Below, piece after piece: positions 701 to 63,985 of a DNA stretch of 64,000 nt. The stretch is from assembly GCA_029785085.1 (NCBI GenBank), contig JAFMAI010000001.1, forward strand, positions 112,677 to 176,676, written 5' to 3'. Positions within the stretch are counted from its first letter, which is position 1. Every line of letters starts with the position of its first letter. A program made the translations under genes and the position numbers. This stretch comes from Nitrososphaerota archaeon. GTDB taxonomy: Archaea; Thermoproteota; Nitrososphaeria; Nitrososphaerales; Gagatemarchaeaceae. Below the pieces are notes generated by a model. The model made no database searches. It was given only the letters and a program-made list of their open reading frames with translations, and had not been told where the DNA came from.

Positions 701-2158
701 TCACCCTTTGATGTTGCCCACTGGCCGCAGCGCTACGACCTTCTTTGAGATGCCTGCCTTGTCCATGGTCTCCACCACCTCGGAGATGTCCTTGTAGGCC
801 ATCCCGGCCTCCTCGGCAAGCCCGTCCATGGTGGCAGCCTTCACGTAGATTCCCCGATCCAGCATCTTACGCTGTAGTTCGGCGCCACGCACCTCGCGTT
901 TCGCCGCTGTCCGGGACATGGTCCTCCCTGACCCATGGGCAGTGGAACCGAAAGTCTCCGCCATGGCTTTCTGGGTCCCGACGAGCAGGTAGGAACCGGT
1001 CTCCATTGACCCTCCTATAATCACGGGCTGCCCTATGTCCCGGTAAGGCGCGGGGATGTCCGGGTGTCCCGGGCCGAAACTGCGCGTCGCCCCCTTCCTG
1101 TGCACCAAGACATCTGCGTTCGTGCCGTCGTAGGCATGCCTCTCCACCTTGGCTACGTTGTGGCATACGTCGTAGATGAGATGCATGTCGAGAGCCTCGG
1201 CTTCTCTGTGGAAGGTCTTGGAGAAAGCCTCCCTGACGCGCTGCACTATGATCTGCCTGTTGGTGAACGCCATGTTAGCTGCGCACACCATAGCCCCGTA
1301 GTAGTCCTTACCCTCCTTCGACGTGAACGGGGCGCAGGCGAGCTCTCTGTCCTTGACCTGGATGCCATATCTCTTCATCGCGCCGTCGAAGACGCGGAGA
1401 TAGTCGCTCCCTATCTGGTGGCCGAACCCTCGGCTCCCGCAATGTACCATGACGAGCACCTGGTCCTCCTGGACAATCCCGAAGTGCCTGGCGAGTTGAG
1501 GGTCGAAGTGCCTGGCCGGGTCAACCACCTGAATCTCAAGATAGTGGTTGCCGGAGCCCAGCGTCCCGAGTTGGCCAATCCCCCTGGTCCGAGCCTGGCG
1601 ACTGACCTTGGATGGGTCCGCCCCCTTGATGTACCCTCCCTCTTCGACGTGAGCTGGGTCGTCCTCCCATGCCTGGCCGTTCTCGGCGCACCATTTCACA
1701 CCGTACTTCATGATCTCGTCGAACTGAGGCTCACTTACCCTCAGGAACCCCTTTACGCCCACTCCTGCGGGGACGAGTTTGAAAATGAGGTCTACTAGCT
1801 CTTTTATCTTTGGTTTGACCTCTGAGTATGTAAGATTCGTTCTTATCAAGCGCATTCCACAGTTAATGTCGAAACCAATCCCTCCCGGGGAAATAACCCC
1901 TTTTTCGAGGTCGAATGCTGCTACCCCCCCTATCGGGAACCCATACCCCCAGTGGGCGTCTGCCATGGCGTAGGCCTGTCGGACGATCCCCGGGAGGCAG
2001 GCGACGTTGGTCACCTGCTCAATCACGCCGGAGTCCATCGCTTCGAGGAGCTTGCGCGTAGCGTAGATCTTCGCAGGGACGTTCATCCCAGGTTTGTAGG
2101 CCTGCGGAATCTCCCACGAGAAGTCGGACAACTGCTTGAACGAGCTTGTCTGTGCCAC
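701..2158 (-). CDS. rtcB: RNA-splicing ligase RtcB
   Basis: 485 aa; FPIGGVAAFD, GGIGFDINCGMRLI, GTLGSGNHYLEIQ, HGSGRTMSR motifs typical of RtcB. Confidence 0.97.
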   Translation of the reverse strand: MAQTSSFKQLSDFSWEIPQAYKPGMNVPAKIYATRKLLEAMDSGVIEQVTNVACLPGIVRQAYAMADAHWGYGFPIGGVAAFDLEKGVISPGGIGFDINCGMRLIRTNLTYSEVKPKIKELVDLIFKLVPAGVGVKGFLRVSEPQFDEIMKYGVKWCAENGQAWEDDPAHVEEGGYIKGADPSKVSRQARTRGIGQLGTLGSGNHYLEIQVVDPARHFDPQLARHFGIVQEDQVLVMVHCGSRGFGHQIGSDYLRVFDGAMKRYGIQVKDRELACAPFTSKEGKDYYGAMVCAANMAFTNRQIIVQRVREAFSKTFHREAEALDMHLIYDVCHNVAKVERHAYDGTNADVLVHRKGATRSFGPGHPDIPAPYRDIGQPVIIGGSMETGSYLLVGTQKAMAETFGSTAHGSGRTMSRTAAKREVRGAELQRKMLDRGIYVKAATMDGLAEEAGMAYKDISEVVETMDKAGISKKVVALRPVGNIKG

Positions 2159-19331: not shown

Positions 19332-19874
19332 ATGCAAGAAGCGGAATCAGAAGGAGAAGCCAAGCCGTACAACGCTCTCCTTGAGGGCGGAATGGTGAAA
19401 ATCACCGACAGTGAGCGGTTCGGGGAGCTCGAGGAGTCTGGGTACGGCACGCGAGAGGGACGCCGTCTGTCGCTACGCGACTACGAGGCGCTATACCTCC
19501 TCTACGCCGGAAAGTTGGAGGCGACCGAGTCAGGGAAGAAGGTGAGTTTCGACAGGCTCGCAGAGCTCTCCCAGAGCAGAGCTGGCGACTCCTGGACGAA
19601 ATTCATCATCTACAGGGATTTGAGGAGCAGGGGGTATGTTGTGAGGGAGGGTTTCGGGTTCGGGACGGACCTCCGGGTGTACGAGCGCGGAGACTACCCC
19701 AAAAAGCCCGCAAAGTACGTGGTGTTCGCCCTGGACGAGGGCATCGAGAAGGACATGTCAGAGCTCCAGAAGTCGGTGAAGGAGATGGCAAAGATGGGGA
19801 AGGAGGCAATCATTGCTGTGATTGAAAGGCGTGGCGAGGTGATCTACTACAAGGTCAGCAAGGCCAGGTTCTGA
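19332..19874 (+). CDS. endA: tRNA-splicing endonuclease EndA family subunit
   Basis: FIIYRDLRSRGYVVREGFGFGTDLRVYERGDYPKKPAKYVVFALDEG and AVIERRGEVIYYKVSKARF. Confidence 0.9.
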   Translation: MQEAESEGEAKPYNALLEGGMVKITDSERFGELEESGYGTREGRRLSLRDYEALYLLYAGKLEATESGKKVSFDRLAELSQSRAGDSWTKFIIYRDLRSRGYVVREGFGFGTDLRVYERGDYPKKPAKYVVFALDEGIEKDMSELQKSVKEMAKMGKEAIIAVIERRGEVIYYKVSKARF

Positions 19875-41523: not shown

Positions 41524-41698
41524 CTACCTATGCCATCCGGAACCAGGAAGGCCCTGAGGCTGGCAGCCGTATATGAAACGAAGCGTGTGTAACGGAGTTT
41601 TCGTACGACTTCGGCGACAAGCGTAAATCCGTTCTACGAGCGCGCGTTCCAAGGTCTGGCAACGCCCGCTCTGAACGGTTGCACGGTGCTCTTAATGG

Positions 41699-41770
41699 TG
41701 CGGCCTCCGGGATTCGAACCCGGGCAAGTGGCTTGGGAAGCCACTATCCTAACCACTGGATCAAGGCCGC
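41699..41770 (-). tRNA. tRNA-Gly(CCC), intronless
   Basis: GCGGCCT...AGGCCGC acceptor, GTGGC-TTCCCAA-GCCAC anticodon arm, CCGGG-TTCGAAT-CCCGG T-arm; 72 nt. Confidence 0.95.
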
Positions 41771-41827: not shown

Positions 41828-42688
41828 TTGTCGACCGAGCAGATTCTGTCCAAGCTGGCACCGAGGCTGAAGAAGCTTGATGCCGGCGCCTATGAGAGGA
41901 GCTACAGGACAGGAGGCACCCAGAGAAAGACGAGCACCCACCAGTTAGTCGCCGACCTCCTTGGCTCGCTGGGCATCGGGTTCAAGGAAAGTGTCGCGGT
42001 TCCTGGCACTGGGGGCCTCAGGGCGGACTTCCAGGTCAACGGCATCTGGATGTTCGTCGAACGTGAGTTGAGCGAGAAGGAACAGGTCCTCCTCAAGGGG
42101 AAGAGCTGCCTCGTAGTCAGGAGGGACTCGCTGAGAAGCGACAGGTCCGACCACGGCATAAGAGTGCTTGGTTTGAACGAAGAAGAGAGAGTACAGACTA
42201 TCTTCTTGGACGACCCGTCCTTCAACTTCGACTATGCCCACATTCTTCCGAAGACCGAGAAGTGTTCCGTGATGCATGGGCATACCTCCAGCGTTCTGGT
42301 GGAGGTGGCGGGTAGACCTGTCGAAGGGATGGTTGTTGACTTCGGCGTCGCGAAGCAGATTGTCAGGGAAGCCATCAGGGGCCTCGACCACAAGCTGTTC
42401 ATTCGCGGCAAGTATGTGACATCCATAGACAGGAAGAGCGTGTCAATGAAGTTCGACACAGTCCACGGAGAGTTCGCCATCAAGGCCCCGAAGGACACCA
42501 CTGTGCTGCTGGATGGAGAAGCAACCGTCGAGAACCTGGCGAGGGAGGTGCTGTCTAGGATTACACCCAACATGCCAAAGAACGTGACCTCCGTGGGCGT
42601 TTACGTGTACGAGGGGCTGAACAAGGGAAGTCACATCCTGGCGAAGATTCACCAGGACGGTGCGCGATCGGCACGAAAGAAGCCATAG
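41828..42688 (+). CDS. fusion: unknown N-terminal domain + C-terminal QueD/6-pyruvoyl-tetrahydropterin synthase-like domain
   Basis: C-terminal FNFDYAHILPKTEKCSVMHGHTSSVLVEVAG (His/Cys/HGH pattern), MVVDFGVAKQIVREAIRGLDHKLF; about 120 aa preceding domain unassigned. Confidence 0.85.
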   Translation: MSTEQILSKLAPRLKKLDAGAYERSYRTGGTQRKTSTHQLVADLLGSLGIGFKESVAVPGTGGLRADFQVNGIWMFVERELSEKEQVLLKGKSCLVVRRDSLRSDRSDHGIRVLGLNEEERVQTIFLDDPSFNFDYAHILPKTEKCSVMHGHTSSVLVEVAGRPVEGMVVDFGVAKQIVREAIRGLDHKLFIRGKYVTSIDRKSVSMKFDTVHGEFAIKAPKDTTVLLDGEATVENLAREVLSRITPNMPKNVTSVGVYVYEGLNKGSHILAKIHQDGARSARKKP

Positions 42689-43320
42689 TGCTCCTCTCGG
42701 GCGGAATAGACTCCGCCACCGCGCTCCTGCTGGCCAAGGAGACATACAGCGCAAGGGCTCTCACCTTCGAATATCGCGGGATAGCTGACAGTGAGATCCA
42801 GTCTGCCAGGGAAATGGCGGCCAAAATCGGCGTGATAGAACACAGGTTCGTGAGGCTTCCCGACCTCAGAGAGGCCGCTGACATCCCCGGCATCAATTTT
42901 GGCGGCCTTCCGCCGACATACATTCCGCTCAGGAACAGTGTGTTCTACTCCTTCGCCGCGTCCTATGCCGAAGAAACCAAGGCATCGGCGCTAGTGGGAG
43001 GACACAACAGGGACGACACGCCCGTCTTCGCTGATGTTAGCCCGACGTTCTTCGCTAACTTGGAGAAGGCGTTCCGCGCTGGATCCCCAATTCTAAGGAG
43101 CAGGAGGCTCAGAATCCTCCGTCCGCTGGGGCGCATGCGAAAGCACCAGGTGGTCAGGCTAGCAAGCTCGATAGGTGTGCCGCTCAGGCTCACATGGAGC
43201 TGCCACCGGAGCGGGAGGGAGCACTGCTGGGAATGCACCGGATGCCTCGCGAGGAGCGCGTCGTTCAGGAAGGCAGGGGTGGAAGACCCTCTCGCGCCTG
43301 ACCTAGGAAAAGTTACTTAA
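42688..43320 (+). CDS. queC: 7-cyano-7-deazaguanine synthase-like QueC
   Basis: LLSGGIDSATALLLA PP-loop; CHRSGREHCWECTGCLARSASF zinc motif. Confidence 0.85.
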   Translation: MLLSGGIDSATALLLAKETYSARALTFEYRGIADSEIQSAREMAAKIGVIEHRFVRLPDLREAADIPGINFGGLPPTYIPLRNSVFYSFAASYAEETKASALVGGHNRDDTPVFADVSPTFFANLEKAFRAGSPILRSRRLRILRPLGRMRKHQVVRLASSIGVPLRLTWSCHRSGREHCWECTGCLARSASFRKAGVEDPLAPDLGKVT

Positions 43321-43346
43321 GGAGTGCCGAAGGGTTTCGGAACTCC

Positions 43347-44093
43347 TTGAAGCGGCATGAACGAACAGCCGACGCCCTGGACTTCATCGATGCGACGGCC
43401 GACGTACAGGCTGAGGTCTCCCAGTTGCCTGTGGACGCTGGCATCGCTAATCTCCGAGTGATCAGCAGCTCGGGTAGCATGACCATGCCAATCGGACTCT
43501 CCATCCAGACCTCCACAGGGCTCCATAGGGGGGTTCACATGAGCCGGATGGTGAAGGCGGCCAACAGCAGGAAACCGAAGGGGGTGGAGCAGTGGCTGCG
43601 GTGGATTTGCAAAGAGGTGAATCAGACACAGCCGGGGTCTAGCGTCACCGCGGACTTCGAACTCCCCTACGAGGATCAGTTCGCGAAGGTCACCATGAGG
43701 GCAACGGAGCGAGGCTTGGTCACATACCGGTACGTGGTAGACGGGATGACGGCATGCCCATGCTCAAAGAAGATGATCGGCGTGGGGCACATGCAGAGAG
43801 CGCAACTGACGGTGTACCTGAAGAGCAACAAGCCCCTCAATTCTATCGCCGTCATTGGAAGAATCACAGAGTGCTTCTCGGCATTTCCCATCGAACACAT
43901 GAAGAGGCTGGATGAAGCGAAAAAGATCCTCGAGGCTCAATCTAACCCGAGGTTCGCGGAGGACATCGTTAGGGAGTGCGTCAGCAGGTTCCCGAATGCC
44001 CTGTTCATAGGCGGAAGGTGCTTCGAGTCGATACACTCCCACGACGCGGTGGCCACGTGGTCGGCGAGACCAGGTTGGATGCCCATCCTCTAA
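43347..44093 (+). CDS. GTP cyclohydrolase, MptA/FolE2 family
   Basis: GLHRGVHMSRM, YRYVVDGMTACPCSKKMIG, GHMQRAQLTVYL. Confidence 0.9.
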   Translation: MKRHERTADALDFIDATADVQAEVSQLPVDAGIANLRVISSSGSMTMPIGLSIQTSTGLHRGVHMSRMVKAANSRKPKGVEQWLRWICKEVNQTQPGSSVTADFELPYEDQFAKVTMRATERGLVTYRYVVDGMTACPCSKKMIGVGHMQRAQLTVYLKSNKPLNSIAVIGRITECFSAFPIEHMKRLDEAKKILEAQSNPRFAEDIVRECVSRFPNALFIGGRCFESIHSHDAVATWSARPGWMPIL

Positions 44094-44141
44094 GGACGAT
44101 GCCCCAGACTTAAATCAAGAGCAGCCCCGCAGCCCGACCGG

Positions 44142-45002
44142 TTGACCGACCTTCTCCTCGGCACGTCAGGCTGGTCGTACAACGAGTGGAATGGCGTATT
44201 CTACCCGAGCTCCTCGATTAACAAACTATCATACTACTCCAAGCTCTACGCGACTGTGGAAATTGACTCGACGTTCTACGCGTATCCCTCGAAAGGGATG
44301 GTGCTCGGCTGGGCGAGATATACGCCCGAGAACTTCATCTTCTCTGTGAAGCTCCCCAGGTTGATTACCCACGACAAGAGGCTGGACCTGTCGCAGGGAG
44401 TCGAAGCGGACACGGTCAGGTTCTTGGGCCTTCTGAAGCCACTCATAGCAGCTGGGAAGCTGGGACCGGTCCTGGTACAACTCTCTCCGAGTTATTCCTT
44501 CCAAGATGACTTTCAGAAGCTGAAAGGCTTCTTTGACAGGGCGCCTGATGACCTGTCGTTCGCGGTCGAGTTCAGGCACCCCTCGTGGCTGAGAGAAGAG
44601 GTCTGGTCGTACCTCAGTAGCAGGAACTTGGCCAACGTAATCGTCGATGAGCCCTTACTCCCTCCGGATACTATCGTGACTGCGGACTTCGCCTTCGTAA
44701 GATGGCACGGGAGGGGTGGCAGGCCATGGTACAACTACAGGTACACCGACGGCGAGCTCGACGGATGGGTTCCGAAGGTGAGGGATGTCACGTCCAGGGT
44801 GAAGAAAACGTTCGGCTACTTCAACAACCACTTCAGGGGGTTCGCGGTTGAAAACTCGCTCAAGATGATGGAGAAACTAGGTGTGTCGACACCACTCCAG
44901 AACGAAGCTAGAGCGAAAGCGACCAAGTTCATCGCCACGGGCAGGAGGGACACAGGAGAGGGGAGCATCCTCGAGTTTGTCGGAGCTGGGAGCGACAGGT
45001 GA
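44142..45002 (+). CDS. DUF72 family protein
   Basis: LLGTSGWSYNEWNGVFYPSS, YATVEIDSTFYAYPS, FVRWHGRGG. Confidence 0.92.
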   Translation: MTDLLLGTSGWSYNEWNGVFYPSSSINKLSYYSKLYATVEIDSTFYAYPSKGMVLGWARYTPENFIFSVKLPRLITHDKRLDLSQGVEADTVRFLGLLKPLIAAGKLGPVLVQLSPSYSFQDDFQKLKGFFDRAPDDLSFAVEFRHPSWLREEVWSYLSSRNLANVIVDEPLLPPDTIVTADFAFVRWHGRGGRPWYNYRYTDGELDGWVPKVRDVTSRVKKTFGYFNNHFRGFAVENSLKMMEKLGVSTPLQNEARAKATKFIATGRRDTGEGSILEFVGAGSDR

Positions 45003-45811
45003 AGGCGGTCCTCCTGCTGGACGGTGACGCTCCCAAGGTCGCTCCGGCGCAGTTGAGCAGGATTGTTCTGAAGGCCGGCATCGAAGTGGGAAGGGCCGGA
45101 GCGGACTTCGGCATCGTCGTAGGCGGGGATGGGCGGTTCGGCAGATACGGGCGGACCGAGAAGCTCCCACTGCTCTTCGTAGGCGTACGGTCGAAGGGGG
45201 CCGCCGGATCAAAAGCCCACCTTGCGCAAACCACCTTTGACGAACTCCCTGAGGCGTTGGCAAAGATCAGGTCCGGAGAATATGCGGTAGATGCGCACCG
45301 ACGGCTGAGGGTCACTAAGGAGGCAAAAGTGCTCGGGGAAGTGTTCACGGACGTCTACCTTCAGAGGGGAGACGAAGGGAGCTGTCTCCGCTACAAGTTG
45401 AGCGTCTCTGGGAAAGGCGCTAGGTTCGAAGAGGCGGCCATAGCGGATGGGGTAGTGGTTGCCACGCGAGCGGGCTCCACTGGCTACTACTCCTACGTCG
45501 ATAGGATTAGAGGGAACATGGTCGAGCCATCCGCATTCGCCCACGTCGGGAGGGACGAAGTGGGCATATGCCACATAACCCCCACCTACACCGAAAGGCT
45601 CGGTGCCGAGATTCACCCGCTGAGATACACGGTCCCCTGGGGGAGCAAGATAGAGATCTCTCTGTTCAGAGAGGCGGACGCCAGGCTCTTCGGGGTCGCA
45701 GACAGCCGAGCAGGAATCAAGGTCTCCATGGGGGAGAAGGTATCCATAACAGCTGGGAAGGAAGTCACGAAGGTGATGACTCTGAGGTACGATCCTCACA
45801 GGTCATGGTGA
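44999..45811 (+). CDS. NAD kinase-like (ATP-NAD kinase) protein
   Basis: GIVVGGDGRFGRYGR and DGVVVATRAGSTGYYSYV; diverged GGDG motif. Confidence 0.8.
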   Translation: MKAVLLLDGDAPKVAPAQLSRIVLKAGIEVGRAGADFGIVVGGDGRFGRYGRTEKLPLLFVGVRSKGAAGSKAHLAQTTFDELPEALAKIRSGEYAVDAHRRLRVTKEAKVLGEVFTDVYLQRGDEGSCLRYKLSVSGKGARFEEAAIADGVVVATRAGSTGYYSYVDRIRGNMVEPSAFAHVGRDEVGICHITPTYTERLGAEIHPLRYTVPWGSKIEISLFREADARLFGVADSRAGIKVSMGEKVSITAGKEVTKVMTLRYDPHRSW

Positions 45812-46095
45812 TAGCCACCCGGTGGCTACACGCTCGACCACATCCCCGATGTAGGTCGCATGGTCTGCGATGCGCTCGAGGCGCCTGAGCATCAGCATGG
45901 AGGAAAACACGCACTTTGGGTCGTCCTTTCCCTGAAAGGGCTCCTTGACGTTCTCTGTAGCTGGAGGCGATGGCGTCGTCCAAGGACGGAATCTTCCTCG
46001 CGAGCCCAGCACCTCTTCGGGCGAATTCGCCCACGCTCATCCAGATCATTTCCTGTATCTTCCGGGCCGTCGCGACGACCGAGCCATGACTCCCT
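45803..46095 (-). pseudogene. C-terminal remnant of a PhoU-like protein, frameshifted
   Basis: VVATARKIQEMIWMSVGEFARRGAGLARKIPSLDDAIASSYRE continues in a different frame as LRRLERIADHATYIGDVVERVATGW. Confidence 0.75.
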
Positions 46096-46202
46096 TGCCT
46101 CTGTTCCGCCGGGCTAGGTCGCGCCTCTGGAGTCTATCCCAATGACCAATTGTCGTCCGGGCAAGAAGTATATACTGGCTATTCCCCAACATTCGGGGCG
46201 AC

Positions 46203-47243
46203 TTGATGGCCGAATCCAGAAGGCAAGATTTCAGGAGGGTGCAGAAGACGGGAGGAGACAGCTTCGTGGTTTCTCTTCCGAAGAGCTGGGTAACTGATGT
46301 AGGGTTGAGGGCAAAGGACCCCGTAGCCGTGCTCGTGCAGCCCGACTCTTCGCTACTGATAGTCCCTAGGAGAGACATACGGACATCCTCCAAATCAGAG
46401 GCCACCCTTGAAACTGCACAAGGTCTCGACAGAGACTTCTTGCTGAGGCATTTCATCTCCTATTATCTGGCTGGGTACGACATCATTAGGGTCGCTATTG
46501 GCAAATCTGATCCTGGACTCAGAGGGTTCATCCGAGAAGGCATCAGGCGTAAACTGGTAGGCGTAGAGATAATCGAAGAGTCGTCGGGAGGCATACTCAC
46601 GCAGTGCCTGTCCGGCTACATCGACCTTCCGCTGAAGAAGGCCTTGGAACGCATGGCCATCATCGCTGGAGGTATGCTAACCGATGCGGTCAGTGTCCTT
46701 CAAGGAGAGAACACGGGAATGTCAGGAGAAGTCGTAGAACGCGACGACGAAGTCGACAGGTTCTACCACTTCCTCCTTAGGCAGCTCAACATAGCGGTGA
46801 GGGATAGGTCGGTGATCCAGGAGATAGGCCTAGCGTCGACGAGAGACTGTCTAGGTTACAGGCTCGTAGTCAAGAACGTAGAGAGAGTAGCCGACCACGC
46901 GGCGAGCATAGCCACCGAAGCAGAAAACCTCGGCAATCTTTCGGAGCAGGCCGTCAAGAAGATCCATGAAATGACCGCGCTTTCCAAGAAAGTGTTCGAC
47001 AGCTCTATCGCTTCATTGCTCCGACTCGACGGCAAGATGGCAGAGGAAGCCATAGCAAAGTCGAAGGAGGTCCTGCAGATGGAGGGGAAAGTCAGCGGCG
47101 AAGTGCTAGCGCCGAAGATGAGCGGAGCCCAGGTCGCCTCTGCGAAACTAATGCTCGAGAGTATTAGGAGGACGGCGGAGTACGGGTCGGACATCGCCGA
47201 AATCGCCATAGACCTCACCGTCGCGGAGCCCCAAGTGGTCTGA
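46203..47243 (+). CDS. AbrB/SpoVT-domain PhoU-like phosphate uptake regulator
   Basis: RRVQKTGGDSFVVSLPKSWVTDVGLRAKDPVAV N-terminus; KNVERVADHAASIATEAENL and RRTAEYGSDIAEIAIDLTV. Confidence 0.9.
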   Translation: MMAESRRQDFRRVQKTGGDSFVVSLPKSWVTDVGLRAKDPVAVLVQPDSSLLIVPRRDIRTSSKSEATLETAQGLDRDFLLRHFISYYLAGYDIIRVAIGKSDPGLRGFIREGIRRKLVGVEIIEESSGGILTQCLSGYIDLPLKKALERMAIIAGGMLTDAVSVLQGENTGMSGEVVERDDEVDRFYHFLLRQLNIAVRDRSVIQEIGLASTRDCLGYRLVVKNVERVADHAASIATEAENLGNLSEQAVKKIHEMTALSKKVFDSSIASLLRLDGKMAEEAIAKSKEVLQMEGKVSGEVLAPKMSGAQVASAKLMLESIRRTAEYGSDIAEIAIDLTVAEPQVV

Positions 47244-47258
47244 GGGGTCGGGTAGGCC

Positions 47259-47570
47259 TCAGCGAAATTCTGGAAGCTCGCAGGTCGTCTCCAGCATTGT
47301 CACGAGCAGCGCCTCGCCACGCTCGGTCAGGGCCACCTCTTCTTCGACTCCGAGACCTGTCATGGTGGACACGACGTCGACGAGGTACTCCCGCTGAAGC
47401 CAGCCGAGGAGGCTGTCGAAGGCCGCGTGAGACAGCTTGGTACGCCTGCGAAGGACGCTGGTGCCCATCCGTTTCGAACCTACAAGCGCGAGCAGGGCGC
47501 AGAGGCTCCGGTCGGCCAGGGCGTCCTTGGAGGACACCTCTCCGAGATTTGATGTTTCTTGTACTTGCAT
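47259..47570 (-). CDS. winged-helix DNA-binding protein, hypothetical
   Basis: 103 aa; LRRRTKLSHAAFDSLLGWLQREYLVDVVSTM. Confidence 0.6.
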   Translation of the reverse strand: MQVQETSNLGEVSSKDALADRSLCALLALVGSKRMGTSVLRRRTKLSHAAFDSLLGWLQREYLVDVVSTMTGLGVEEEVALTERGEALLVTMLETTCELPEFR

Positions 47571-47752
47571 CGGCCCGAAAAGCGTCGGAGCGAGCTAAAA
47601 TGGTTCTCGAATGAGTCCAATGGGTAATCATACACTATAGCGACGACTCCGTGCTATGAGTATGAACCGGTCCATTATCTGATAGAACGCGCCTAGCAAC
47701 GACTACCGCCGGGGGCAAAGGCTGGCTCGCGCGCTTCCAACCCAGCGGAAGA

Positions 47753-48022
47753 TTGAAGGGCGCGGCGGTCGGCATCAGGACCATGGGGTGGTACTACCAT
47801 ACCTGCCCAAAGTGCCACGAGAAATCCCGGAAGCGTGTGCTATGGAACAAGAGGAAGTCCGCCGAGAAGGTCGAACTGTCAAAGAGAGGATGGGTGACCG
47901 GGAGAGGGGTGCAGTTGAAGGAGCCCTACCATGTGTGGGTATACTCCTACGAGGAGGAGCACGAATGCCAGCGGTGCAAGCATAGATGGATCGAGTACGT
48001 CACGAAGCAGAGGCCTTGGTAG
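47753..48022 (+). CDS. small zinc-ribbon-like protein
   Basis: CPKC...CQRC spacing, basic; start may be internal ATG MGWYYHTCPKC. Confidence 0.6.
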   Translation: MKGAAVGIRTMGWYYHTCPKCHEKSRKRVLWNKRKSAEKVELSKRGWVTGRGVQLKEPYHVWVYSYEEEHECQRCKHRWIEYVTKQRPW

Positions 48023-48109
48023 GCAGACTGGAGGTCGGCATAGCGCTTCTCCATCGCCAGGTCCTAGGAAAAGGCCCAGCGCCTGGTTGCCGTGATATGG
48101 TTGCTCCAC

Positions 48110-48378
48110 CCCATCACCTTTGCCTGCGGTTACCAGGTTACGCAGGCTGCCTCTGATGGGTGAACCCCAGGCGTCGGCATGGGAGTCACAGCGTCGCAGC
48201 GTTGGGACTGGGCTCTGGTGGGTGAACCTGATCTCGGTCTTGGCGCCCCTTCTGGAGACATCGAAGACAATCTTCGTGCCTCTCCACTCGGTCTTATCGC
48301 TGACGAATCTAGGGCCGCCCTTGATGACTGGCCAGACCACCCTCTTGCCGGGATCTAGCTCCGCCTATCGGTGAGTCA
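48110..48378 (-). pseudogene. N-terminally truncated SRPBCC (AHSA1/START-like) C-terminal fragment
   Basis: ELDPGKRVVWPVIKGGPRFVSDKTEWRGTKIVFDVSRRGAKTEIRFTHQSPVP...GSLRNLVTAGKGDG; no N-terminal half, abuts tRNA-Ile. Confidence 0.65.
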
Positions 48379-48398
48379 ATCATAAGCTGTTTCCTAGG

Positions 48399-48491
48399 TG
48401 GGCCGGAAGGGATTCGAACCCTTGGCCTCCCGATTATCAGTCGGGTGCTCTAGCCAAGCTGCTCCCCTATAAGGGACTGAGCTACCAGCCC
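48399..48491 (-). tRNA. tRNA-Ile(GAT) with an 18-nt insertion in the D-loop
   Basis: GGGCTGG/CCGGCCC acceptor, GCTC/GAGC D-stem, CCCGA-CTGATAA-TCGGG anticodon arm, AAGGG-TTCGAAT-CCCTT T-arm; insertion TCCCTTATAGGGGAGCAG between CAG repeats. Confidence 0.9.
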
Positions 48492-48612
48492 AGCCTCCGG
48501 GGCATGTGACATCCTCTATAAGCGTGCGAGTGCTGGTGGGCCCAGCAAGCTGCCTCGGCCCGGAGGCCGATTCCCCTAGTTTAAAATGCCCAGAAGGAAC
48601 GTCGCTGAGTGT

Positions 48613-48705
48613 GGGCCGGTAGTTCAGCGGTACGAACGTCCGCCTTGCACGCGGAAGAGCCCCGAAAGGGCTCCAAGGTCGGGGGTTCAATTCCCCCCCG
48701 GTCCA
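48613..48705 (+). tRNA. tRNA-Ala(TGC) with an about 20-nt hairpin insertion in the variable region
   Basis: GGGCCGG/CCGGTCC acceptor, TCCGC-CTTGCAC-GCGGA anticodon arm, GGGGG-TTCAATT-CCCCC T-arm; insertion contains GAGCCC-CGAAA-GGGCTC. Confidence 0.9.
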
Positions 48706-48749
48706 CGCATTCTCAACCCGTATATCATCCCGAAGCCTGCCGCCAGAAC

Positions 48750-49217
48750 ATGGTCGTGGAGGAACCTACAGTCGCAAAGGCGATGTCGCAGGTGGTGATG
48801 GCAATCGAGTTGAACGTCAGTGCCGCAGACTGTGCGAAGGCGATGGCAAAGAAGGGAGTTAGCTGCGCTGTCATCACGCAGAGCGGTTCAGCCATCGGGA
48901 TTGTGACGGAGCGAGACCTAGTGTCTAAGGTGCTCGCCGAGTCCATAGAAGCGAAAAAAGTACTCGTACGCGACATAATGTCCACCCCGCTAATCACCAT
49001 CGGCCCCGACGCTTACTTGACCGGCGCCGCTGAACTGATGTCCAGGTACCGCGTCAGGAGGCTCGTTGTCGTCGACCAGGTCGGGACGCTCATGGGGATA
49101 ATCACTACGGGCGACATCGCCAGGTCGCTGGCCGAGAGGCAAGGATACCGCGAAGCCACTTTAAACGCAATGGCGCGGTTCAGCGAAGGGAAGATGGAAA
49201 ACGGACCTTATCAGTAG
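48750..49217 (+). CDS. CBS-domain pair protein
   Basis: Two CBS repeats; ATG at 48750 preferred over the 48609 ORF start, which overlaps tRNA-Ala. Confidence 0.88.
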   Translation: MVVEEPTVAKAMSQVVMAIELNVSAADCAKAMAKKGVSCAVITQSGSAIGIVTERDLVSKVLAESIEAKKVLVRDIMSTPLITIGPDAYLTGAAELMSRYRVRRLVVVDQVGTLMGIITTGDIARSLAERQGYREATLNAMARFSEGKMENGPYQ

Positions 49218-49219
49218 TC

Positions 49220-49858
49220 CTATTCGACTCGGACCCTGACCCCACTGGGCCGTGCAGTCTTCAACGGAATAGTCACTTCAAGGACCCCGTTGTTGTAAGC
49301 AGATATAGCACGCTTCGGGTCGACCACTCCAGGGAGGTCCAGCTTCTTGTAGTACCCCCGGTCTTCGTGCTCTACAGAGATTATCATTGTGTTCTCGTTT
49401 ACCGTCACGTTGATGTCTTCTTTCCTTACTCCTGGCATCTCCGCTATCACCCGGACATCCTTGCTTGAGGTGACGACGTCGACGAGGGGCTCGCGCTTAT
49501 CCTGGATGGACTTCCAAGCTTTCCCCTCCTCGCGCCTTACGTTCCCGAACTCTCTTACCACCGGCTTCCCGTCTGGCCCAATAGTCACAGAGTAACCGTA
49601 GACAAATGGTCCGATCTCCTTCCTTACTCCCCCTCCGGGTATCTTCGACTCCCTCACGAGGTTCCTTGGGAGCTCTTTCTCGAGGTCCTTGAATTCCACC
49701 GAGAAAGCCCTCTCCACTTCTTTCATCATCTCGTCGATGTCAGGTAACCCCCACGGGCCGAATGGAGCCCTGCGCCTCCTGTGGACGCTCCAGTCATCCT
49801 TATCGTCGTCTTCCATATTCCCTTTCTGAGGACCCGTAGAGGGATTTATTCCTTTCAC
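49220..49858 (-). CDS. Hsp20/alpha-crystallin small heat shock protein
   Basis: VDVVTSSKDVRVIAEMPGVRKEDINVTVNENTMIISVE; YNNGVLEVTIPL; start likely MEDDDK near 49816. Confidence 0.92.
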   Translation of the reverse strand: MKGINPSTGPQKGNMEDDDKDDWSVHRRRRAPFGPWGLPDIDEMMKEVERAFSVEFKDLEKELPRNLVRESKIPGGGVRKEIGPFVYGYSVTIGPDGKPVVREFGNVRREEGKAWKSIQDKREPLVDVVTSSKDVRVIAEMPGVRKEDINVTVNENTMIISVEHEDRGYYKKLDLPGVVDPKRAISAYNNGVLEVTIPLKTARPSGVRVRVE

Positions 49859-49940
49859 GCAGAGCTCGTTCCGCCCCGCCGGGTTAAAGACGGAATCTGA
49901 AAAAAGCTTTTACAGACACAACGCCTTTGCGAGAGTACGA

Positions 49941-50843
49941 ATGTCGACCGCTCTGTATGCGAAGATAACGGTGCTCTTCTTCGTGCTCACGGCGCTACTC
50001 ATGCTCATAGGATACCTCGTCGGGTGGTACTTTTTCGGAGATCCAGTAGCCTTTGTAGGGCTGGCCCTAGTCCTCGCCGCTGTAATCAACTTCGTTTCAT
50101 ACTACTACAGCGACTCGCTTGTCCTCCGGATGAGCAAGGCCAAGATCGTCCAAGAGAGCGAGTATCCGAGCCTGTTTAGGATTGTGAGAAGTGTCGCCCA
50201 GAAGGCGAACATCCCCATGCCCAAGGTGGGCGTCGTCGACTCCTCACAGCCCAACGCCTTCGCGACGGGGAGAGGACCAACTAGGGCATTGGTGTGCGCC
50301 ACATCTAGCATCCTCCAGACGCTCACCCCAGACGAGTTAGAGGCAGTCATCGGACACGAGATAGGGCATGTGGTGCATCAGGATGTCCTGATGTCAAGTG
50401 TAGCGGCCACGATGGCCGGGGCGATCTCATACATAGGGCAAATCGCGATGCTTTCTATGATCTTCGGAGGCGGAGGGAAAAACAGGAACGGTGGGTCCCC
50501 CCTTGCCCTGTTGGCCATCATACTGGTGCCCTTGGGTGCGACCTTCGTACAGCTTGGCATCAGCAGGGATGATGAGTATAACGCCGACGAGTACGGCGCA
50601 AGGCTCACGCGGAACCCTGCTGGGCTGGTGACAGCACTGGAGAAGATCACCGCCAAGGCGCAGACGAGGCCCATAGCCACGCATGCCTCCAAGGCGCCTT
50701 CGCCGGCGACTGCCTCTTTGTGGATCGTCAACCCGTTCCGCGGGAACTCGCTGACCGAGATGTTCTCCACCCATCCCTCTCTGCCTCACAGGGTAGAGAG
50801 GCTGAGAAAAATTGGCCGAGAAATGAACGTCTACGTCCCCTAG
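49941..50843 (+). CDS. htpX: HtpX-like M48 membrane metallopeptidase
   Basis: LEAVIGHEIGHVVHQDV HExxH, N-terminal TM helices, DEYGARLT. Confidence 0.93.
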   Translation: MSTALYAKITVLFFVLTALLMLIGYLVGWYFFGDPVAFVGLALVLAAVINFVSYYYSDSLVLRMSKAKIVQESEYPSLFRIVRSVAQKANIPMPKVGVVDSSQPNAFATGRGPTRALVCATSSILQTLTPDELEAVIGHEIGHVVHQDVLMSSVAATMAGAISYIGQIAMLSMIFGGGGKNRNGGSPLALLAIILVPLGATFVQLGISRDDEYNADEYGARLTRNPAGLVTALEKITAKAQTRPIATHASKAPSPATASLWIVNPFRGNSLTEMFSTHPSLPHRVERLRKIGREMNVYVP

Positions 50844-51289
50844 CCCAGCAGGAGGCGAGCCAGGGCGAGGATAGCGCCCATCTCTACCAGGTCGTCCTCC
50901 CTCGCTTGGTTCTTGGGAACCTGCTCGGACGGAGGCTGAGGGACGGGCATCGAAATGGAAAGTGACGGAAGAAGCGTGGTTGGGAAGAGGGCAGGGGAGT
51001 AGCTGAACTGCTGTGATTGAGGGGAGGGCGGAGGAGCCATGGCAGCCATCGGCTTGACCTGAGGTGGGGGAGACGTCTGGCCCTCAGTGGGCTGTGGCTG
51101 TGCACTCTGGGGCATGACCCGCCTGGACGTCTCGTTTTGCGGCCTGGAGGCCGGCGGCAGCGGAGGATGCGAAGAGGCGAGTAGCGCAGGGATGACCATG
51201 AGAAAGCCGAAGACAGACAGTAGGTAGAAGCCGACAAAGACCCCTGCAATGATAAGGAACAGGCCGAATATCAGGAGGCTCCTGTTCAT
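50840..51289 (-). CDS. membrane protein with Pro/Gln-rich cytosolic region
   Basis: Two N-terminal TM segments followed by a low-complexity linker. Confidence 0.6.
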   Translation of the reverse strand: MNRSLLIFGLFLIIAGVFVGFYLLSVFGFLMVIPALLASSHPPLPPASRPQNETSRRVMPQSAQPQPTEGQTSPPPQVKPMAAMAPPPSPQSQQFSYSPALFPTTLLPSLSISMPVPQPPSEQVPKNQAREDDLVEMGAILALARLLLG

Positions 51290-51329
51290 GGCAGAAGGAA
51301 GAGTCGGGTCTTGGTATTAAGGATTGAAG

Positions 51330-51454
51330 TGGGCCGGGGCGGAGTTGAACCGCCGACCTTGGCGCTTCGCGTTTGATTCGCCGTCTTCTGCTAGCAAGTG
51401 TCAGAGCTTGACGGGATCCACCCTGACGTCCTAACCATGCTAGACGACCGGCCC
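51330..51454 (-). tRNA. tRNA (Val-like by acceptor and D-arm; anticodon not resolved) with about 50 nt extra sequence
   Basis: GGGCCGG/CCGGCCC + A acceptor, GTCT-AGCATGGTTA-GGAC D-arm, GGCGG-TTCAACT-CCGCC T-arm; 125 nt in total. Confidence 0.75.
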
Positions 51455-51600
51455 CTGTTTAGACCGCCATCGAACCTGCCTTTTATGCTTAGCATGCCTC
51501 GACCAGGCAACTGGAACAGGATGCCGTTCGCCGATTGACGAGAGCGGTTCCGCCGCCATTCTATCAATTAAATAACCAGATGGACGGACGGCGCTGCCAG

Positions 51601-52872
51601 ATGACAGAAAACTCGGAACTTCAGGGGTTCTACAAACTCTCCATGGAAGAGAGGAGAGAACTTCTCAAGAAGGCTACGGGACTTACTGATGAAGAACTCG
51701 GTATATTGGCAGGGACCGGGTCGCTCCCGCCTGGGACCGCAGACCACATGATTGAGAACGTGGTGGGGGGATACACATACCCCCTCGGCATAGCCACCAA
51801 CTTCCGCATCAATGGGAAGGACTACTTGGTCCCCATGGCCCTCGAAGAGCCTTCCGTCGTGGCTGCTGCCAGCAATGCAGCCAAGATGGCGAGGGTAAAA
51901 GGAGGATTCAAGGTGACGAACACCGGCCCGGTGATGATTGGCCAGATCCAGGTGGTCAACGTTCCGAAGCCTGAAGAGGCCAAAGCACACCTGCTCTCAA
52001 AGAAAGCTGACGTCTTGAAGAAGGCGAACGACCAGGACCCCATGCTTGTCTCGCTTGGTGGGGGAGCCAAGGACCTCAACGTCAAGGTGCTCTCCAGCAT
52101 CAAGGGACCCATGATAGTCGCCGAGCTCGTAGTGAACACTGGGGACGCCATGGGGGCTAATGCTGTCAACACCATGGCGGAAGCGGTAGCCCCCATGGTG
52201 GAAGAAATCACAGGAGGGAGGGTGTTCCTCAGGATCATCTCTAACTTGGCCGACAGGAGGCTGGTCAGGGCAACAGCGGTCTTCGACAAGGAAGCGATTG
52301 GGGGAGAAGACGTGGTCGACGGTGTGGTCTACGCCTATGCTTTCGCAGACGCCGACCCCTACAGATGTGCCACCCATAACAAGGGAGTCATGAACGGCGT
52401 CATAGCGGTCGGGATAGCCTGCGGCCAGGATATCAGGGCGCTAGAAGCTGGCGCGCATAGCTACGCCTCCAGGACAGGCAAGTACAAGCCAATCACGACG
52501 TGGGAGAAGAATGTCGATGGGGATCTCGTAGGGACCCTCGAGATGCCGATGGCCGTGGGACTAGTCGGCGGTGCGGCGAAGACACATCCGACTGCGAGGG
52601 TGAACATCAAGATACTTGGCGTGAAGACCGCTACGGAGTTGGGAGAGATCCTGGGGGCAGTCGGCCTCGCCCAGAACTTCGCTGCCCTAAGGGCCTTGGC
52701 CAGCGAGGGAATCCAGAGGGGCCACATGAAGCTGCATGCGCATAACGTCGCTTCCTCTGCCGGAGCCACGGGGGACCTGATCGACATCGTGGCTGCGAAG
52801 CTGGTCGAAGAGAAGAAGGTCAGGTTCGACCGGGCGAAAGAGCTGGTCGAAGAATACAGAAAGAAGGCCTAG
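51601..52872 (+). CDS. hmgA: hydroxymethylglutaryl-CoA reductase
   Basis: ENVVGGYTYPLGIATNFRING, MGANAVNTMAEA, RGHMKLHAHNVA; ORF open from 51535, ATG at 51601 preferred. Confidence 0.96.
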   Translation: MTENSELQGFYKLSMEERRELLKKATGLTDEELGILAGTGSLPPGTADHMIENVVGGYTYPLGIATNFRINGKDYLVPMALEEPSVVAAASNAAKMARVKGGFKVTNTGPVMIGQIQVVNVPKPEEAKAHLLSKKADVLKKANDQDPMLVSLGGGAKDLNVKVLSSIKGPMIVAELVVNTGDAMGANAVNTMAEAVAPMVEEITGGRVFLRIISNLADRRLVRATAVFDKEAIGGEDVVDGVVYAYAFADADPYRCATHNKGVMNGVIAVGIACGQDIRALEAGAHSYASRTGKYKPITTWEKNVDGDLVGTLEMPMAVGLVGGAAKTHPTARVNIKILGVKTATELGEILGAVGLAQNFAALRALASEGIQRGHMKLHAHNVASSAGATGDLIDIVAAKLVEEKKVRFDRAKELVEEYRKKA

Positions 52873-53046
52873 TCGCCAACCATCACCTCAGACGCCTCTG
52901 CTGCTCTGATTCAATGAATCGGCTGCTGAGGTGGCTTGAGCGTGTGGGACACGCATACGACTACGTGCTGGAAGAAGGCGGTCCGAATGCGTTTACGCGT
53001 CGGCCGGCGCGTTGGGGAGCATCCCGAAGGGAGGACAGGCTGACCT

Positions 53047-53886
53047 TTGATACGACTTGGAAAGTCCTATAAGCGAAACAGCTCGGTCGCGCCAGAGTTG
53101 CAGGAATCGCCCAAACTCCCCGAGTCGGTGCTGCCACGCGGCAGATGTCTCCTCGCCGTCGCCGTTCTAGTCTTCGTCGTGGGGTCGCTCGAGGCGGCGG
53201 ACATCGTCAACATTCCATTCGGCTCTTGGTTTTCCTTCCTCGCCGGCTCGGTACTTTCTTCTGCGACCCTGACCGATTTCATGACAAAGTATGGTTACGC
53301 TAGCCTGTTCGGCCTTATGGCGCTCGAAAGCGCGTCTCTTCCTGTCCCCAGCGAGGTAGTCCTCCCCTTGGCGGGCTACTTCGTCAGGACAGGCGTCCTG
53401 AACTTCTGGGTGGCGGTGGGCGTAAGCACCGTAGCGAGCCTGGCGGGCGCGCTACTGGACTACATCCTCGCCATCTGGCTGGGGAGGCCCTTCGTGGTCG
53501 GACTGCTGAGGCTCTTCAAGTTGCACAAGGACATCCTAGACAGGGCGGAGGCATGGTTCGGACGCTCGGCCCAGTGGACGGTCTTCGTTGCTAGGTTCAT
53601 ACCGGGACTGCGGACGGTTATATCGCTGCCGGCGGGACTGTTCGAGATGAAACTATCCCGCTTCATCGTGATGACGGTGGCAGGATGCTTCCTGTGGTCT
53701 GTCGTCCTGATTTACGCGGGTTACCTAGCGGGTGGGCTCACAGGGAACACCTTCGCGTCGTCGTCTGTGGTGGTGGACGGGCTTTCAGGGGTACTCGCGG
53801 CCATCTCCGCGGCCTACATAGGTTTCTACTTCTACTCTGGATTCCGCATGAAGTCGGGGCCTACACCTCCATCATCGGGACCTTGA
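53047..53886 (+). CDS. DedA family membrane protein
   Basis: [41 protein letters not shown]. Confidence 0.92.
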
Positions 53887-55537
53887 CACCTTTGCCCTTC
53901 GCGGTCTTGATGGCTTCTTCATACCCTGCGTCCACATGCCTCGCTACCCCTAGGCCGGGGTCATTGGTGAGTGCCCTTTCGATTGTGGCGTCGGCCTCGG
54001 GGGTACCGTCGCACAGGACTGCCAAGCCTGCGTGGATAGAGTATCCAATCCCGACACCGCCACCGTGGTGTACGGAGACCCAAGATGATCCAGACACGGC
54101 GTTGAGCAGCGCGTTGAGGATAGGCCAGTCTGCGATCGCGTCAGACCCATCCTTCATACCCTCGGTCTCCCGATAGGGTGACGCTACGGAGCCTGAGTCC
54201 AGATGATCCCTCCCGATGATCACCGGGGCTGAGATCTTGCCGTCACTCACCATGCCATTGATTATTTTGCCGAACTTAGCCCGCTCGCCGTACCCCAACC
54301 AGCAGACGCGCGCAGGGAGGCCCTGGAAACGGACCTTGTCGTGGGCTTTCTGAATCCACCTTACGAGAGACTGGTTGCCGGAGAACTCCCTGACCACAGC
54401 CTCGTCGGTGGCAAAGATGTCTTCCGGGTCTCCCGACAGGGCGGCCCAGCGGAATGGCCCTCGCCCCTCGCAGAAGAGCGGCCTTATGTATTCAGGGACG
54501 AAACCGGGTATCCTAAACGCGCATTCTACCCCCGCGTCCTGGGCCATCTTCCTAATGTTGTTGCCATACTCGAACGCTATGGCGCCACTCTCCTGGAACT
54601 CTAGCATGGCCCTGACGTGCTTGGCGATGGACTTCATGGAGCGGTCCAAGTACGCCTTGGGGTCTGATGCCCTAAGCGACTCTGCCTCCTTTATCCCCAG
54701 GCCTTCTGGTATGTACCCCGCCAGGGGGTCGTGGGCGGCCGTCTGGTCCGTGATGATATCAGGCCTGAATCCCGACTGCAGTAGTTCAGGGAGGACTTCT
54801 GCGGAGTTGCCCAGCAGGGCGACGGACAGCGGCTTCCCTCGGTCGGCCGCGCCCCGGGCTAGGTCGAGCGCCTCCTTCACGTCCTCTGTCACGACATCAC
54901 AGTATTCCTTGTCGAGCCTGCGCTGTATCGCCCTCCTGTCCACCTCCACTATCAGGGCCACGCCTTCGTTCATGGTCACGGCCAGAGGCTGAGCCCCGCC
55001 CATCTCTCCCAGACCTGACGTCAGCGCGACCTTGCCTCTCAGGGAGCCGCCGAAATGCTTGTTGGCTACAGCAGCTAGCGTTTCATAGGTCCCCTGGAGG
55101 ATCCCCTGGGTCCCGATGTACATCCAACTCCCGGCGGTCATCTGGCCGAACATCGTGAGCCCCCGCTCCTCCAGCTCCCTGAAATAGGCCCAGTCCGCCC
55201 ACTTCGGGACTAGCATCGCGTTTGAGATGAGCACCCGCGGCGACGCCGGGCTCGTCCTGAAAATCCCAACCGGCTTCCCCGACTGAATGAGAAGCGTCTC
55301 GTCGTTCTCGAGGGACTTCAAGGACCGCACGATGGCGTCGAAGGCCTTCCATGACCTAGCTGCCCTCCCCGTACCACCGTAGACTATCAGATGCTCGGGG
55401 TCCTTGGCGACTTCGGGGTCGAGGTTGTTCATCAGCATCCTGAGGGCGGCTTCCTGATGCCAGCCTTTGCAGGAGATGGCTGTCCCTCTCGGCGCCCGGA
55501 CCTCACGCCGCTGCATGAAACTCTGAACCTCGCACAC
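53861..55537 (-). CDS. hutU: urocanate hydratase
   Basis: 558 aa; [58 protein letters not shown]. Confidence 0.96.
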
Positions 55538-63887: not shown

Positions 63888-63985
63888 TGCGGTGGCCGGG
63901 ATTTGAATTCTCGAGTCATTTACATGACTTCCCGAGTTAGTAGCGTGGCAGGCTACTGTCCTGGACCAGGCTAGACGACCACCGC
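63888..63985 (-). tRNA. tRNA-Gly(GCC) with an about 23-nt insertion at the T-stem/T-loop junction
   Basis: GCGGTGG/CCACCGC acceptor, GTAGC-CTGCCAC-GCTAC anticodon arm, TCGGG [insertion with AGTCAT-GTAA-ATGACT hairpin] TTCAAAT CCCGG. Confidence 0.85.

Follow-up and report, generated by a model that had tools for sequence, protein, structure and literature searches.

A tRNA-Val(GAC) gene with three bulge-helix-bulge introns in a Nitrososphaerota archaeon and the 0–3 intron series of its relatives

Archaeal tRNA genes interrupted by as many as three introns have been described before. In the Thermoproteales, tRNA-Glu(UUC) of P. calidifontis and tRNA-Pro(UGG) of P. islandicum carry three introns each (PMC4390854, PMC4090602), and the positions described include, among others, 29/30, 30/31, and 45/46 (PMC4090602). 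Introns average 0.84 per gene in the Thermoproteales and 0.21 in archaea overall (PMC8450103). Caldiarchaeum subterraneum tRNA-Thr(GGU) has two, at 24/25 and 45/46 (PMC3293823), whereas the Asgard archaea of wetland soil contain introns in 92–95% of their tRNA genes (PMC11291895). Noncanonical introns of Thaumarchaeota tRNAs were modelled in tRNAscan-SE 2.0, which splices iteratively, since excision of one closely spaced intron has to precede formation of the following motif (PMC8450103). A genomics paper on the Gagatemarchaeaceae (PMC10640624) does not mention introns.

The gene described here is another such case. It lies in a stretch of 64,000 nt (hereafter the window) from a Nitrososphaerota archaeon near Ca. 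Gagatemarchaeum, i.e. in the phylum of the Thaumarchaeota introns mentioned above and with introns of the same kind. It shares with the multi-intron genes of the Thermoproteales short introns (about 12–25 nt), bulge-helix-bulge boundaries, a maximum of three introns per gene, and a mixture of canonical and non-canonical positions, but it differs from them in host (Nitrososphaerota) and in being a tRNA-Val interrupted at 28/29, 36/37, and 44/45. As in the case of the wetland-soil Asgard archaea, the hosts are soil archaea whose tRNAs carry several non-canonical introns; the lineages are distant and no shared origin is claimed. In Caldiarchaeum, the intron number of one tRNA varies between strains; for tRNA-Val it varies here between species. 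In Caldiarchaeum, intron gain was linked to an inserted element (PMC3293823).

The original prediction, a 125-nt Val-like tRNA locus, proved to be real and to correspond to a pre-tRNA-Val(GAC) on the minus strand. We are close to certain that the locus constitutes a functional tRNA-Val(GAC) gene with a TATA promoter and three bulge-helix-bulge introns, composed as follows:

51330..51454, minus strand, pre-tRNA-Val(GAC) gene, 125 nt, tRNA positions 1–73 including A73
51425..51454, minus strand, exon 1, GGGCCGGTCGTCTAGCATGGTTAGGACGTC, positions 1–28 (acceptor 5′ strand, D arm, position 26, first two nucleotides of the anticodon stem)
51408..51424, minus strand, intron 1, AGGGTGGATCCCGTCAA, 17 nt, position 28/29
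51400..51407, minus strand, exon 2, GCTCTGAC, positions 29–36, with the anticodon GAC at 51400–51402
51385..51399, minus strand, intron 2, ACTTGCTAGCAGAAG, 15 nt, position 36/37
51377..51384, minus strand, exon 3, ACGGCGAA, positions 37–44
51359..51376, minus strand, intron 3, TCAAACGCGAAGCGCCAA, 18 nt, position 44/45
51330..51358, minus strand, exon 4, GGTCGGCGGTTCAACTCCGCCCCGGCCCA, positions 45–73 (variable loop, T arm, acceptor 3′ strand, A73)
51480..51486, minus strand, TATA-box-like element ATAAAAG, 26–32 nt upstream of the tRNA-Val gene

The gene sense is the reverse complement of 51330–51454 and extends over exactly 125 nt from acceptor GGGCCGG to CCGGCCC plus A73. On the minus strand, the order is GGGCCGGTCGTCTAGCATGGTTAGGACGTC-[AGGGTGGATCCCGTCAA]-GCTCTGAC-[ACTTGCTAGCAGAAG]-ACGGCGAA-[TCAAACGCGAAGCGCCAA]-GGTCGGCGGTTCAACTCCGCCCCGGCCCA, with introns in the inner brackets. 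As had been predicted, acceptor, D stem, and T stem are perfect (7, 4, and 5 bp, all paired in the precursor), and the extra length between D arm and T arm, put at about 50 nt, amounts to exactly 50 nt, i.e. three introns of 17, 15, and 18 nt. Removal of the introns yields a 75-nt product with all four stems paired into a complete cloverleaf, the anticodon stem TCGCT/GGCGA (five pairs, one of them G-U), and the variable loop AGGTC. In this product the suspected Val(GAC) anticodon loop CTGACAC takes its expected place, and ARAGORN classifies the spliced form as tRNA-Val(gac). The neighbouring gene, encoding HMG-CoA reductase, is located on the opposite strand and starts within about 130 bp. No match was obtained in a plasmid collection.

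Exon boundaries were derived by searching 60 related genomes, followed by spliced alignment of Val tRNA orthologues; that of exon 1 is based on alignment against intronless and partly intronless relatives. Orthologues with three introns occur in 11 genomes of the genus (that of the window included) and in G029, where the HMG-CoA reductase/tRNA locus matches that of the window at 99.99% identity over 11.3 kb and the tRNA locus is identical. A three-intron parse was also obtained for G035, from another genus, although a weaker one. The three-intron gene lies beside HMG-CoA reductase in archaeal, Nitrososphaerales, and Thaumarchaeota MAGs, whereas in the more distant Ca. Gagatemarchaeum stordalenia the gene contains one intron. 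An intronless Val(GAC) gene of 75 nt from another family of the same order (L037) is identical to the spliced product at 70 of 75 sites and confirms the exon boundaries. Further relatives carry the introns in various combinations: (i) 28/29 as the sole intron in L025 (Val(GAC)) and L029; (ii) 36/37 as the sole intron in L032 and L034, both Val(GAC); (iii) 44/45 as the sole intron in L035 and L065 (Val(GAC)), and also in L030, L033, and L040; (iv) 28/29 together with 36/37 in L021–L023; (v) 28/29 together with 44/45 in L058, in Val(TAC) genes (L028, L054–L056), and in Val(CAC) (L053); and (vi) no intron in the Val(CAC) gene L044. This modular presence and absence fixes the intron boundaries independently of structure. 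No simple single intron at 37/38 emerged from the alignment to Val tRNAs of relatives, an outcome that would have spoken against the original prediction.

When introns are simply penalised in spliced alignment, a reading with just two of them is preferred (17 nt at 28/29, 33 nt at 38/39; 73/75 identity), and its product passes as Val(gac) in ARAGORN. The anticodon stem would then read TCGCT/CGCCA, some of its pairs are lost, and the predicted fold is not a cloverleaf. The reading is also contradicted by the relatives with an intron at 36/37 only or at 44/45 only, which show two separate units. As the three-intron parse gives 75/75 together with three 4-bp central helices, we consider the two-intron reading highly improbable.

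Twelve distinct three-intron copies were compared, one of them from a probably mis-binned contig. The mature tRNA is identical in eight (window included) and differs at 1–4 of 75 sites in the other four, while identities of the introns to those of the window drop to 11/17, 10/15, and 11/18. These data bear on the possibility of a tRNA pseudogene whose tRNA ends were retained by chance or whose decay is recent. Such a view could draw on the unspliced precursor receiving no call from ARAGORN or from Rfam at the gathering threshold, and on the minimum-energy structure of the unspliced RNA being another fold, not tRNA-like in the middle. Against it, exons are nearly invariant over divergent species while introns change, a pattern opposed to relaxed constraint, and the upstream ATAAAAG element is kept at most of 15 loci compared. 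No uninterrupted, redundant Val(GAC) gene was found in the congeners searched, and the complete genome G005 has one Val gene for each of the anticodons GAC, TAC, and CAC, so that the Val(GAC) gene should be essential. The likelihood of a pseudogene thus appears negligible.

The mis-binned copy lies on a 25.7-kb contig of the same bin as the window (G000, contig C1, locus L152), which is syntenic with window positions 42040–55244 at ~80–84% nucleotide identity and carries its own three-intron Val(GAC). We set aside a paralogue as an explanation, since, with contig-wide synteny at this level of identity, a contaminant from a sister species is more likely. Other variants were noted among the Val tRNAs. 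In L066 (6926–7054, minus strand), tRNA-Val(GAC) has a D-arm insertion of about 54 nt, a clean D-loop intron, and in L038 (1443–1582, minus strand) tRNA-Val(GAC) has a D-arm insertion of 47–48 nt. The T loop reads GGTCC instead of GGTTC (C rather than T at position 55) in L020, L036, L046–L048, and L053–L055.

Pairing was scored by one helix rule, in which, at splice sites fixed by comparison, the four nucleotides preceding the last two exon bases of the 5′ splice site are set against the four preceding the last two intron bases. In the window, each intron shows a 4-bp Watson-Crick central helix: (i) GACG/CGTC for intron 1, with bulges TC^A and AA^G; (ii) TCTG/CAGA for intron 2, with bulges AC^A and AG^A; and (iii) GGCG/CGCC for intron 3, with bulges AA^T and AA^G. 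Across the 12 three-intron genes, 46/48, 48/48, and 48/48 cells are paired, respectively, with one mismatch in the intron 1 helix of two sequences. Compensated changes were found in the inner helix of intron 1 (C-G to G-C; GGC/GCC and GGG/CCC, plus GGT/GCC wobble forms), in the inner helix of intron 2 (U-A to C-G; CT/AG vs CC/GG), and in a central helix of the Val(TAC) gene L028, where GATG/CATC replaces GACG/CGTC. The outer helices, of about 2 bp, have the short, relaxed form, and at 36/37 the 3′ bulge is larger than standard, which is the cost of an anticodon-loop intron in this register. The two-subunit endonuclease of this phylum reportedly accepts expanded motif forms (PMC4090602; PMC4033280).

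Folding for bulge-helix-bulge motifs led to the same result: a homology-free solver with cloverleaf and bulge-helix-bulge rules finds the identical three-intron parse, and 8 of 300 interior dinucleotide shuffles match the score of the real sequence. Structure by itself is therefore suggestive and only modestly beyond chance; at the level of sequence, it is the comparative evidence that settles the three-intron parse.

Three helices had been suggested to compete within the locus, and all are present; GGCG/CGCC turned out to be the central helix of intron 3, while the other two are incidental. GTCAG/CTGAC, in which exon GTC faces the anticodon GAC and two bases of the intron, is paired in 60/60 cells in the 12 genes, yet four of its five pairs are invariant and the fifth changes only from A-U to G-U. 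In L042, L043, and L048, genes for Val(TAC) and Val(CAC), the same intron keeps AG despite a mismatched anticodon. CCGTC/GACGG is paired in 56/60 cells, is broken in L012, L016, L018, and L039, and shows no compensation. The short direct repeat CGTCA does occur twice, but needs no separate explanation: CGTC forms the 3′ side of the central helix in intron 1 and also the exon sequence at 25–28, which suffices.

The suggestion of one canonical and one or more non-canonical introns was right as to one anticodon-loop and two non-canonical introns; the loop intron, however, most plausibly sits at 36/37 rather than at 37/38, judging from the relatives. In the window alone the boundary is ambiguous, as removal at 36/37, 37/38, or 38/39 yields one and the same product. 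Three introns with the loop intron at the canonical 37/38 (its ends would then be CTTGCTAGCAGAAGA, not ACTTGCTAGCAGAAG) would thus fit this sequence by itself. In relatives, the first base of intron 2 is A, G, or T and the 3′ side is invariably ACGGC, so only 36/37 retains A37 everywhere; in L017, L021, and L034 the intron begins with G or T and A37 is kept on the 3′ side, where a 37/38 site would turn position 37 into G or T. The central helix for 37/38, on positions 32–35, is paired in 12/48 cells, as against 48/48 for 36/37. We therefore regard the canonical site as unlikely.

The way from this gene to a mature tRNA can be outlined in part from enzymes present in the window:

701..2158, minus strand, RtcB tRNA-splicing ligase
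19332..19874, plus strand, tRNA-splicing endonuclease subunit of the structural type, lacking the catalytic histidine (...YPKKPAKYVV)

This histidine is catalytic in the EndA family. The complete relative G005 has a structural subunit and a second subunit bearing the histidine, and relatives including G029 have two endonuclease subunits; the catalytic subunit was absent from the host bin, which is 66% complete. We infer that the gene would be transcribed from the TATA promoter as a three-intron precursor, that the splicing endonuclease would cut at six bulge sites, and that RtcB would join the four exons into the 75-nt tRNA, which is predicted to read GUC as well as, through wobble pairing, GUU. 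For their central helices, introns 1 and 3 draw on bases 23–26 and 39–42 of the exons, respectively; these helices are thus expected to be incompatible with the finished tRNA: the former would compete with its D stem, and the latter would take bases required by the anticodon stem. The outer helix of intron 2 (positions 29–30 with 40–41) would need bases tied up by the intron 3 helix; intron 3 is therefore expected to leave before intron 2.

Introns seem to be frequent in other tRNAs of the group as well. A rough scan of G005, which recovered 25 of roughly 45 expected tRNAs, gave preliminary counts of 14 intron-bearing genes among 25 confidently parsed ones and about 28 introns in total; 11 of the 14 contain two or more (Val genes were counted from the spliced alignment). 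In G045, from another family of the order, about 10 of 41 genes are long. The genus, in or close to Gagatemarchaeaceae, probably underwent a tRNA-intron expansion like that of the Thermoproteales, with a Val series of 0–3 introns at fixed sites in which 36/37 recurs, a reading we hold with moderate confidence. Taken alone, the single gene is ordinary by archaeal standards. If the expansion is true, the series at 28/29, 36/37, and 44/45 could reveal gain, loss, and required splicing order: a stepwise, species-level series in one orthologous tRNA suits testing one-by-one intron gain, as well as whether folds that rule each other out dictate the sequence in which introns leave. Because neither ARAGORN nor Rfam reports the gene, a genome of this group can look as though it had no tRNA-Val(GAC).

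Other tRNA genes of the window were noted in passing. The locus at 48399–48491 (minus strand) is labelled tRNA-Ser(gct) by ARAGORN; with an 18-nt D-loop intron, TCCCTTATAGGGGAGCAG, removed, it becomes tRNA-Ile(GAT) with the anticodon arm CCCGA-CTGATAA-TCGGG. The variable loop of tRNA-Ala(TGC) at 48613–48705 (plus strand) is ~18–20 nt too long, probably due to an intron near 45/46. For tRNA-Gly(GCC) at 63888–63985 (minus strand), which both ARAGORN and Rfam miss on the window, the parse places a 23-nt intron in the T arm, at 53/54. The tRNA-Gly(CCC) gene at 41696–41770 (minus strand) is intronless, and its 3′ CCA is gene-encoded.
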